Of a stretch of 32,115 nt of DNA, positions 21,824-24,983 are shown in pieces. Positions within the stretch are counted from its first letter, which is position 1. Each line of letters opens with the position of its first letter. This DNA comes from Candidatus Poseidoniales archaeon (lineage in GTDB: Archaea > Thermoplasmatota > Poseidoniia > Poseidoniales > Poseidoniaceae). The notes beneath the pieces were generated by a model that worked only from the letters and a program-made list of their open reading frames with translations, was not told the DNA's origin and did not search any database. The stretch is from the NCBI GenBank assembly GCA_003602475.1, contig QQSC01000006.1, forward strand, positions 1 through 32,115, read 5' to 3'. Both the position numbers and the translations under genes were made by a program.

Positions 21824-22729
21824 TCACTCGGTTTTGGAGTCGGATGATTCATCGCTGGAATCGTCTTTGTTTTCCTGGTCTTCTGCCGATGCGGCCCCTT
21901 TTGCAGCAATCTTTGCTTGGCGCTTTTCTTGTCGCTCCAAAAGTTGGTCCCCAAAGTTGCCCATGTTCTCAAGGCGAGCCCAGATTCCCGTTGCCTTTTC
22001 TTCCTCGGATGGAGTGTACTTGACGAGGTAAGCACCGAACAACAGGTCATACACGCCCTGGCTCATTTCACTTCCGTTCCTGAGGTATCTGTCAATGAAC
22101 CAAAGGATCATGAACACAGCACCCAATGAAAACATCACAATAGCCCCAGTGTTGCCATCTTCCGACAAATTTTGGAACTGGGTTCCTACCATAATCAATC
22201 CAATCAAAGCGGCCAGTCCGGCTGAATTGACCAAGATACCGTGGAGGAACACCGGGTCTCGGCCATCCCCTCGTACATATTTTGTTCTCGAAACAAATTG
22301 TCCAATGTTTCTGCTGAATTTCATTGGGATAAAAATCACGTTGATCACAATGATTCCACCGCTCACAGCAAAGAGGATGGTGGTCACGACACCGGTGTCC
22401 GAGGTTGCAATGAAAATAGCAGCAAACAAGACACCAAAGTTCACGATAAAATTCACCAACCAAGAAATTCGTCGGTTCATCCCGCTTGCGAGCTCGTAAT
22501 CCCCTGAGAGGCCTGCTGGACGCGCTCTTGGCACCTTGGCTTTAGCGGCTTTAGCGGGTTTTGCCTTGGCGGCTGGCTTAGCCTTAGCGACCGCTTTCGC
22601 TGCTGGTTTTGCTTTGGCCACCGCTTTCGCAACGGGTTTAGCCTTGGCAATGGCTTTAGGAGCCGCTTTGGCTTTTTTGTCTTCGGTATCGTTTCCGCCT
22701 GCTGCTGCAGCCTTGTCGAGCAATCCCAT
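21824..22729 (-). CDS. Four-helix membrane protein with histone-H1-like Lys/Ala/Pro N-terminal tail
   Basis: About 301 residues from the ATG at 22729. A GTG at 22738 overlapping the upstream stop is the alternative. Residues 18-71 are a strongly basic low-complexity tail built from AKAKPAAKAV-type repeats, like histone H1 or bacterial HctA/AlgP tails. Four hydrophobic segments follow (about 88-108, 113-135, 161-182, 195-213). The C-terminus is a charged helix (LLERQEKRQAKIAAKG) ending in an Asp/Ser/Glu-rich stretch. No known family was recognised. The positive-inside rule puts the basic tail in the cytosol, where it could bind nucleic acid or another polyanion; that is inference. It lies five bases after the proline-rich gene. 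Confidence 0.8.
   Translation of the reverse strand: MGLLDKAAAAGGNDTEDKKAKAAPKAIAKAKPVAKAVAKAKPAAKAVAKAKPAAKAKPAKAAKAKVPRARPAGLSGDYELASGMNRRISWLVNFIVNFGVLFAAIFIATSDTGVVTTILFAVSGGIIVINVIFIPMKFSRNIGQFVSRTKYVRGDGRDPVFLHGILVNSAGLAALIGLIMVGTQFQNLSEDGNTGAIVMFSLGAVFMILWFIDRYLRNGSEMSQGVYDLLFGAYLVKYTPSEEEKATGIWARLENMGNFGDQLLERQEKRQAKIAAKGAASAEDQENKDDSSDESSDSKTE
22517..22678 (-). repeat. Degenerate tandem repeat encoding Lys/Ala/Pro tail
   Basis: The coding strand repeats a GCC-AAA-GCA-AAA-CCA-GCA-type unit, for example two near-copies of a 30-base segment encoding KAVAKAKPAA. Codon variation between copies suggests the protein repeat, and not recent DNA slippage, is conserved. Confidence 0.7.
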
Positions 22730-22734
22730 GTTCT

Positions 22735-23703
22735 TCACGCACCCTTGTATTCTTCGCCAATGCGACTGTAAATTTCGAACTCAGGCGAAGAGACAAACGC
22801 ATTGATGGAATCGTCAGGCATGTTGCCCAACAGGTCGTCGACCATCAAATAAAATTCCCGACGAGTTTCATCGCTTGTGGTGGTTGGCGATGCATGCACC
22901 TCTTTTAGCAAATCAAAACCAGAGCTGTTCATGAATTCTGTAACAATATTCTCTGGCAAGTGGTCACCAAGAAGGTCGTTCGCCAAGACGACAAACGATT
23001 CGAACAGTTCATCGATTTCACTGGTTTCAACCGGGGCAGCTACAGGTGTTTCTTGAGCTGAAGCAGGCACATCGGATTTGAGTGCTTTTCGACGAGCCAT
23101 CAACTCTGTCAACACCGGTTTAAGTTCCGCTAGTGAGGCCGTGTCACCCGTGGCTTTTGCTTCCTGATACAACGGTTTGAGTTGGCGAAGTTCCGATTCC
23201 ACCGTCTTCAATTCTTCCGCTGGCGTCAGCTCGGTTGGTTCGTCCTGGCCGATGAGTTCGACGGTCGGTGCATCACGAAGTTCTGCCTTCTTTTCTTCAA
23301 GCGATGCTTTTCGCATGACGATGATCTCACGGTCAAGGGAGTGGCCAAACCTGTCTGCGTACCTGTCTAAAAGTGAGCCAGCCTCTTTGTTGCTGATTCG
23401 GTCGATGTGACCGTAGATCTGTTGGAGGGGCTTTTCGGACCTCTTTGCCCATAGAGAACCGTATTCTGAGGAATCGACTCGTTCTGAAAGGCTCGTAGGT
23501 TGTGTGGGCTCAACGGCAGGTTGAGTTGCTTGTGGTGCGACGGGGAGAGGCTCAGTAGGGAGCGGCAGGGGTGCCAATGGAAGGTCGCCAGGAAGAGGAA
23601 GTGGTGGCAGTTCTCCGGGCATTGGAAGGGGTGCTGGGAGAGGGGCGTCAGAGGACGTGGCCTTCTTCGATTTCTTACCACGACGTAGTCCCAATGACCT
23701 CAC
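22735..23703 (-). CDS. Proline-rich protein with duplicated C-terminal module, function unknown
   Basis: 322 residues from a GTG start (codes MRSLGLRRGKKSKK, basic). Residues 20-70 are a Pro/Leu repeat (PLPLPGDLPLAPLPLP). A helical domain at 80-131 is followed by a charged, probably coiled-coil segment (130-210). The C-terminus holds two copies of one module, at about 227-259 and 284-315. Both contain a DLLG core, then P, then an I-x-x-F / S-x-x-F pattern (DLLGDHLPENIVTEF versus DLLGNMPDDSINAF). No membrane segment or catalytic motif is visible. It lies 77 bases after priS and is closely followed by the Lys/Ala/Pro-tailed membrane protein, so the two may act together. A scaffold role is plausible but unproven. 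Confidence 0.78.
   Translation of the reverse strand: MRSLGLRRGKKSKKATSSDAPLPAPLPMPGELPPLPLPGDLPLAPLPLPTEPLPVAPQATQPAVEPTQPTSLSERVDSSEYGSLWAKRSEKPLQQIYGHIDRISNKEAGSLLDRYADRFGHSLDREIIVMRKASLEEKKAELRDAPTVELIGQDEPTELTPAEELKTVESELRQLKPLYQEAKATGDTASLAELKPVLTELMARRKALKSDVPASAQETPVAAPVETSEIDELFESFVVLANDLLGDHLPENIVTEFMNSSGFDLLKEVHASPTTTSDETRREFYLMVDDLLGNMPDDSINAFVSSPEFEIYSRIGEEYKGA
23494..23646 (-). repeat. Proline-leucine repeat tract inside the proline-rich gene
   Basis: Imperfect PLPxPGxLP repeats encoded by CCA/CTT/CCT/GGC-type codons. It is a protein-level low-complexity region, probably an extended polyproline spacer between the basic N-terminus and the helical domain. Confidence 0.6.
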
Positions 23704-23780: not shown

Positions 23781-24983
23781 TCAACCGACGATACGTGCCC
23801 ATCCTTTGAGGACAAGGAACGTGGCACCGGATTCGTGGATACGGATTCGTTCTCCAGCTTTAGTTTCGAATCGACGTTCACCAAATTGAGCAACAGCACC
23901 ATCCAGTGTGAATTCAACCTCAATCGTCTCGTCCATTCCCAGTACGAGGGTTTCTTGAAGCGGATTAAATGTGTTTGAACCATCGGGATCAAGGCGATTG
24001 AGTGGGAATTCTGTAACACGCATTCCCGTTTTCCCGTGTAGTGACGTCGGCCAACGAATTTGTCGTCGTACGTCGATGGTCACCACCTCGTCTGTCTCAC
24101 CGGCAGAACCCAACACCACCGATGCATCGGACTTGAGAAGGTTGAGGAACAACCCTTGGTAGTTCGATAGCAGGTCAAACCGTCCTTCCATCAGTCTTTT
24201 GGACCGCTCGGGGTGGTCAATGAGTGAGGATAGTTTGCGGATGGCATCTGCAGTTACCTGAGAGGTTTTACCCTCCCGACGTTGGAGTGAACGCAATTCC
24301 GCCTCCAGTCGTTTGAGTTCTTCAGCTGAACCTTCCACTTGCCGATTGATGTTGGTGAGGGTCGCCATCATGTCCCCCATACCCGCACGAAGGCGCCGAG
24401 TCCATCCCTTTGCATCACCTTCTCTGAAGCGTGCAAGCCCGCCTTGAACGTCCACGCCCTCTCCTCGAATGTGAGAAACAAGTTCTCTTCGAGCTTCTGA
24501 ATCCAAATGAAAGAACTTCGGGTCGCGGTAGTGCAAATGGAAACCTCTGTGACCAGAGAATGTGACTTGGAGGAATCGCTCATCAAATCCAAATTCAGGT
24601 TCCAAAAAATCGTTCCACAGAGACCAGGCTTGTTCTTGAATGACCTCCAGCATCGCCGGAAAATCTTTGTCGGTTACACCAGGCAAGTGGTCGCCATCCA
24701 AATCAAAGATCAGATCTGCCCCTTGCCACCCTTTATCGTCCATTTTAAGCTCGTATGGTCGCTTCCAGTAAGCGGTTGAGTAGAAACAAGAATGCATGGC
24801 TCGTTCGGACAGGAATTGCCTCACGTCGGCGGTCGTGGAGAACGCCTTATGACGAAGAGGAGGCGCTCCGCCGAACGGAATAAACATCCATTCCCTTGTC
24901 CTGAACCTCGGGGGTGACCACAAAGGTGCGGTGTGGTAGTATTGGCTGAAGCGATGTGCGAATCGAGCCCAACCATCCGCCAT
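23781..24983 (-). CDS. priS: DNA primase small (catalytic) subunit PriS
   Basis: Synthesises the primers for DNA replication together with PriL. 400 residues, near the usual archaeal length. The catalytic metal-binding block LIFDLDGDHLPG (Asp about 94, 96, 98) and the nucleotide-binding SGHRGFH (about 143-149) are clear. The conserved C-terminal block IDVRRQIRWPTSLHGKTG carries the third acidic residue and the family's SLHGKTG signature. A long charged, partly coiled segment of about 100 residues lies between the two halves. The large subunit PriL is not in the window. The gene is followed on the same strand by the proline-rich gene. Confidence 0.95.
   Translation of the reverse strand: MADGWARFAHRFSQYYHTAPLWSPPRFRTREWMFIPFGGAPPLRHKAFSTTADVRQFLSERAMHSCFYSTAYWKRPYELKMDDKGWQGADLIFDLDGDHLPGVTDKDFPAMLEVIQEQAWSLWNDFLEPEFGFDERFLQVTFSGHRGFHLHYRDPKFFHLDSEARRELVSHIRGEGVDVQGGLARFREGDAKGWTRRLRAGMGDMMATLTNINRQVEGSAEELKRLEAELRSLQRREGKTSQVTADAIRKLSSLIDHPERSKRLMEGRFDLLSNYQGLFLNLLKSDASVVLGSAGETDEVVTIDVRRQIRWPTSLHGKTGMRVTEFPLNRLDPDGSNTFNPLQETLVLGMDETIEVEFTLDGAVAQFGERRFETKAGERIRIHESGATFLVLKGWARIVG

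Follow-up and report, generated by a model that had tools for sequence, protein, structure and literature searches.

The locus and the layout of its genes

The window, i.e., the whole stretch of 32,115 nucleotides from a Candidatus Poseidoniales archaeon that was analysed here, encodes a protein of 319 amino acids that ends in two copies of a small domain, the DLLG module; the features of the window described below all lie on the minus strand. In an earlier note, the gene had been taken as an open reading frame of 322 codons (22,735-23,703) with a GTG start at position 23,703. In all 73 homologous open reading frames, however, this first codon is a GTG within a GAGGTGA-like Shine-Dalgarno sequence and codon 4 is ATG, TTG or GTG, so codon 4 is regarded as the true start. 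The gene thus runs from a TTG at 23,694 to 22,735, its product begins with MGLRRGKKSK, three codons downstream of the original start, and the stretch GTGAGGTCA (23,695-23,703) more plausibly belongs to the Shine-Dalgarno sequence.

Orthologs are found in 40 public contigs, and those carrying an order-level name belong to the Poseidoniales; in a class-level search, 168 of 195 genomes were matched, the matches in a third family (f3) being weak. Aligned from the N- to the C-terminus, the orthologs display a proline-rich region that varies, a core that is nearly invariant, predicted helices and finally the two modules. The proline-rich spacer (residues 18-70 in the numbering of the earlier note; 23,494-23,652) had been recognised before and does exist, but it is variable among orthologs. 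Conservation is highest, above that of the spacer and the modules, in the core around residues 80-150, on which the note was silent; its near-invariant part (residues 78-151; 23,251-23,472) includes LWAKRSEKPLQQIYGHIDRI, GSLLDRYADRFGHSLDREIIV and RDAPTVELI. AF2 models the core without a confident fold and predicts long helices for residues 160-211 (23,071-23,226).

The gene next to that of the module protein encodes a membrane protein of 301 amino acids with four hydrophobic segments, which starts with an ATG at 22,729 (21,824-22,729). Its annotated GTG start at 22,738 (open reading frame 21,824-22,738) is probably a Shine-Dalgarno sequence, and the ATG at 22,729 is the conserved start. The N-terminus of this protein carries the sequence MGLLDKA (22,709-22,729), the putative plug motif discussed below, followed by a basic stretch rich in alanine, lysine and proline (22,520-22,681). 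In Poseidoniales, the genes are arranged in the fixed order zinc ribbon–PriS–module protein–membrane protein; genes for MetRS and a DUF21/CBS protein are close by, and the order is nearly fixed in both Poseidoniales families. PriS (23,781-24,983) is encoded upstream and lies outside the proposed pair of module and motif. It has 400 residues, over which the primase Pfam match (profile positions 1-161) is spread from residue 93 to 326, and weak coiled-coil-type matches around residues 196-274 suggest a coiled-coil insertion. Judged by the presence of a T2SSE ATPase, T2SSF and pilins, the window locus is not of the archaeal type IV pilus or archaellum type.

The DLLG module

Module 1 (residues ~227-272; 22,876-23,013) and module 2 (residues ~275-320; 22,738-22,875) are both around 46 residues long and contain DLLG, followed by a proline and then by I/V-x-x-F and S-x-x-F. 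The duplication that the earlier note had described is borne out by a local BLOSUM62 alignment score of 59 between the two copies, as compared with 20.6±4.2 (maximum 44) for 5,000 shuffles, and hhalign relates the two ortholog-derived module alignments with a probability of 99.2%. A profile built from 17 modules of non-Poseidoniales proteins matches both copies of the window protein (i-E 5e-7 and 2e-14) and none of 2,000 shuffled proteins. The window protein fits the profile of the DLLG module family, which was defined in this analysis and comprises around 47 positions of the pattern LLG-x-LP-x(2-3)-I-x2-F-x2-S-x2-F-x-L/I-Y. Each module is predicted by AF2 to form three short helices (pLDDT ~85-92), in line with the compact helical domain that had been proposed.

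The note had assigned no name to the module, and it matches nothing in Pfam, NCBIfam or the PDB: the window protein has no hit above the curated cut-offs of Pfam or NCBIfam, sequence searches of the PDB found no match, and Foldseek searches of the PDB with the model, whose first version is of low confidence outside the modules, gave best E-values of 0.58-0.65 and none at or below 0.001. A Pfam match to Peptidase_M3_N, obtained for 8 of 45 isolated modules (best E 0.0098), is below significance and was rejected. Literature searches found no published description of the module or the motif.

Spread of the module and of the core

A profile search for other module proteins, as suggested in the earlier note, was productive: module profiles, run on cellular genomes of the Thermoplasmatota, match many families of this phylum beyond the Poseidoniales, and the idea of a lineage-specific complex can therefore not be upheld. 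Outside the Poseidoniales, the module is mostly single and C-terminal and is found on coiled-coil, zinc-ribbon and KaiC-like proteins; in the genome of the window it occurs in this protein only, and no relatives were found in phage, plasmid and viral collections. One membrane protein (L123:8289-10607) carries two DLLG modules near its N-terminus together with TSP3 repeats and a CBM96 domain, and no GLLxKA gene is located downstream. At two loci (L131:6651-8096 and L132), a protein with a terminal module is encoded directly 3' of a KaiC-family ATPase gene; the gene following it is ribosomal S6e-like and lacks a GL(L/R) motif. Open frames of 600-700 amino acids, which were suspected to be fusions, turned out to reflect long proline-rich N-termini or frames that continue into the gene that follows.

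The core is found without the modules. Homologs in the f3 genomes, which are probably MGIII, keep the N-terminal layout and the core (E 5e-8 to 7e-6 with a core-only profile, for which no shuffled control was scored), lack DLLG modules and are not encoded near priS. These MGIII-like homologs carry a SAP domain at their C-terminus (E 2e-12 to 4e-14), for which Pfam gives no match in the window protein; in L086, L089 and L096, the core is joined to glycine-rich repeats and the SAP domain, which take the place of the DLLG modules. Some f2 members possess an EF-hand between core and modules. Such EF-hand-like segments are seen in L062:4490-5575 and L068:4599-5552, of which L068 passes the EF-hand_1 cut-off, and the N-terminal extension of L059 contains a related one. 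The core is thus the ancestral element and the modules are one of several attachments. In genome G203, the gene of a basic protein with two modules at its C-terminus and a weakly matched core (E 0.001) precedes that of an RDD membrane protein with a basic tail and an MGLLDKA start; this pair is likely orthologous to that of the window.

The priS linkage that the earlier note had mentioned holds across the Poseidoniales, but fails elsewhere: priS was not found near the homologs of the MGIII-like genomes and of G203 or at the other module loci examined. Since it is confined to the Poseidoniales, the link is weak evidence of function.

A motif at the start of the next gene

The gene downstream of a module gene starts with MGL(L/R)(D/E)K in 109 of the 117 distinct module genes for which the downstream sequence is long enough, compared with 5 of 1,568 control open reading frames; about two in three of these pairs represent one orthologous Poseidoniales pair, and the independence of the observation comes from roughly ten other families. 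A looser re-listing yielded eight control cases; seven are shadows that module genes cast in another frame, and the remaining one (L206) lies in a locus that was fetched by the motif itself. In an unbiased scan, 194 whole genomes yielded 67 listed matches to the pattern at start codons, as opposed to two for the reversed pattern. Among the matches listed, 56 are strict MGLL(D/E)KA starts. A module gene ends 3-40 nt (median 11) upstream of 54 of them (0.005 expected by chance), and two lie away from module genes, of which one is a copy at a contig edge. Variants with Phe or Gln, 11 in number, never adjoin a module gene. Counted by genome, a strict match is present in 54 of 79 module-positive and in 1 of 115 module-negative genomes (Fisher p 3e-27). 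Of three matches to a second pattern, for MGLR starts, one adjoins a module gene. The same layout is seen in high-GC genomes that escaped the first pattern, where Lys is replaced by Arg or a different start codon is used, for instance MGLLERA in L209 and GLLDKA in L210. No downstream motif follows the module genes of the KaiC-like loci L131/L132 and of L123, L211 and L213. In three f11 genomes, genes starting with MGLFDKA (G202:C278, G238:C221 and G244:C43) adjoin no detected DLLG module; they are possibly divergent pairs.

Apart from the motif, the neighbours are unrelated to one another: they comprise the multi-pass membrane protein of the window, the RDD protein, ATPases, coiled-coil proteins of 850-1,660 residues and an AAA protein with a DUF835 domain and zinc ribbons. 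The partner T2SSE ATPases score best with models of the archaellum FlaI/PilB3 type; a T2SSF gene comes after such an ATPase gene, Pilin_N is found upstream and TadC-like proteins are encoded nearby, and locus L135 holds the T2SSE ATPase, T2SSF and pilins that mark a pilus or archaellum locus. Several of the pilus-type ATPases possess one or two further internal GLLxKAxx(K/R) copies, with three copies in L184, which argues for a linear motif rather than an artefact of start sites. As the N-terminal residues are common to otherwise unrelated protein bodies and recur internally, selection seems to act on the linear motif itself. The earlier suggestion that the module might be a protein-interaction unit is strengthened by this striking tie to a motif in the next gene.

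Does the module dock the motif?

We propose, with a probability of roughly 60%, that the GLLxKA helix docks into the DLLG module as into a socket, by which in the window a cytoplasmic scaffold would be tied to its membrane partner. The small helical DLLG domain would serve as the socket and a short helical motif, GL(L/R)x(K/R)A, as the ligand or plug, usually located right at the N-terminus (MGLL(D/E)KA) of the product of the gene that follows. The window protein would then be a soluble scaffold composed of a basic N-terminus, the proline-rich spacer, the invariant core, a helical stalk and two sockets, which may bind the MGLLDKA helix of the multi-pass membrane protein encoded next to it, thereby keeping the invariant core near the membrane. 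A complex with this basic-tailed neighbour, as the earlier note had supposed, is also the interpretation that we favour; a candidate ligand peptide for the module pair (residues 222-322) is MGLLDKAAAAGGND. At other loci, the socket may pair with pilus- or archaellum-like ATPases, giant coiled coils or AAA proteins. When the module pair of L032 was modelled by AF2 as an in-frame read-through into the start of its natural partner, the motif was predicted to be helical, with a mean block pLDDT of ~69 for the motif, ~51 for the linker and ~41 for the tail; this moderate pLDDT value at the motif is compatible with docking, but is suggestive only and no proof.

The motif could also be understood without any contact to the module, as an amphipathic helix that targets proteins to the membrane or the cell pole, module and motif being separate parts of the same membrane-associated complexes. 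It is short, N-terminal and amphipathic, and its carriers include several proteins of the membrane and ATPases associated with it; however, such a helix would be superfluous for partners that already have transmembrane segments, and a general signal should also occur away from module genes, where only 2 of the 56 strict matches are found. We therefore consider a pure targeting function unlikely. Adjacency alone would also be expected from a vertically inherited operon whose second gene had its body exchanged but retained the initial codons, without functional coupling, and the very regular gene order and spacing (median 11 nt) would fit such a relic. Its probability is nevertheless very low, since the persistence of seven residues in unrelated proteins whose codons for them vary, together with the internal copies in the ATPases, requires selection at the level of the peptide.

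A further explanation starts from the other neighbour and regards the module protein as a replication factor acting with PriS, for instance as a positional equivalent of GINS, with the membrane protein being incidental. PriS adjacency is fixed across the Poseidoniales, the SAP domain of the MGIII-like homologs is of a DNA-binding type and the Ala/Lys-rich tail of the partner could bind nucleic acids. The Sld5/GINS model (PF05916) has no match over the cut-off in the genome of the window, a result to be read with the fact that it passes in only 1 of 14 control archaeal genomes. However, the homologs of the MGIII-like genomes and of G203 lack priS nearby, module genes elsewhere adjoin genes for pilus ATPases and coiled-coil proteins, and no likeness to replication proteins is seen in Pfam or the PDB, which makes a replication factor improbable, even more so than a targeting helix. 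The SAP domain and the basic tail could also be combined with the docking model, in which case a link between nucleoid and membrane is possible.

A wider claim, to which we assign even odds, is that DLLG sockets on cytoplasmic scaffold proteins form a general code of the Thermoplasmatota by which the GLLxKA plugs of unrelated machines (pilus motors, membrane proteins, coiled coils and AAA proteins) are docked, with a membrane-anchored scaffold encoded together with the primase gene as the Poseidoniales version. For conserved unknown genes of the most abundant surface-ocean archaea, and of the wider phylum, this provides a name, a partner and a mechanism that can be tested. Should the motif bind the module, interaction partners could be predicted straight from genomes by a signature of seven residues, and the predicted partners would include the cytoplasmic side of pilus- or archaellum-like motors.

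Comparison with known systems

Pairs in which a domain docks a peptide are well known, such as the MIT domain with MIM helices and FliS with the flagellin terminus. The system proposed here resembles them in combining a small helical domain with a short, putatively helical partner motif that is sometimes repeated, but differs in that no match in sequence or fold was obtained; the FliS chain 1orj is the top hit of one of the Foldseek searches, with an E-value of 0.58 and a probability of 0.08. The RDD family (PF06271) is represented by the G203 partner with its MGLLDKA start and basic tail, whereas the partner of the window has no RDD match and no significant similarity to it beyond the tail (E 0.12).

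At type IV pilus loci of archaea, the genes next to that of the pilus ATPase include those of cytoplasmic coiled-coil accessory proteins, for example arCOG07564 (PMC4858521). In contrast to these proteins, the module protein of the window is encoded outside a pilus locus, and the available part of that paper describes no such module or motif. A similar arrangement is seen in L124, L125, L135, L137 and L138, in which the module gene is located directly upstream of an ATPase-type gene, with T2SSE being confirmed downstream of the module gene in L135 and L137.
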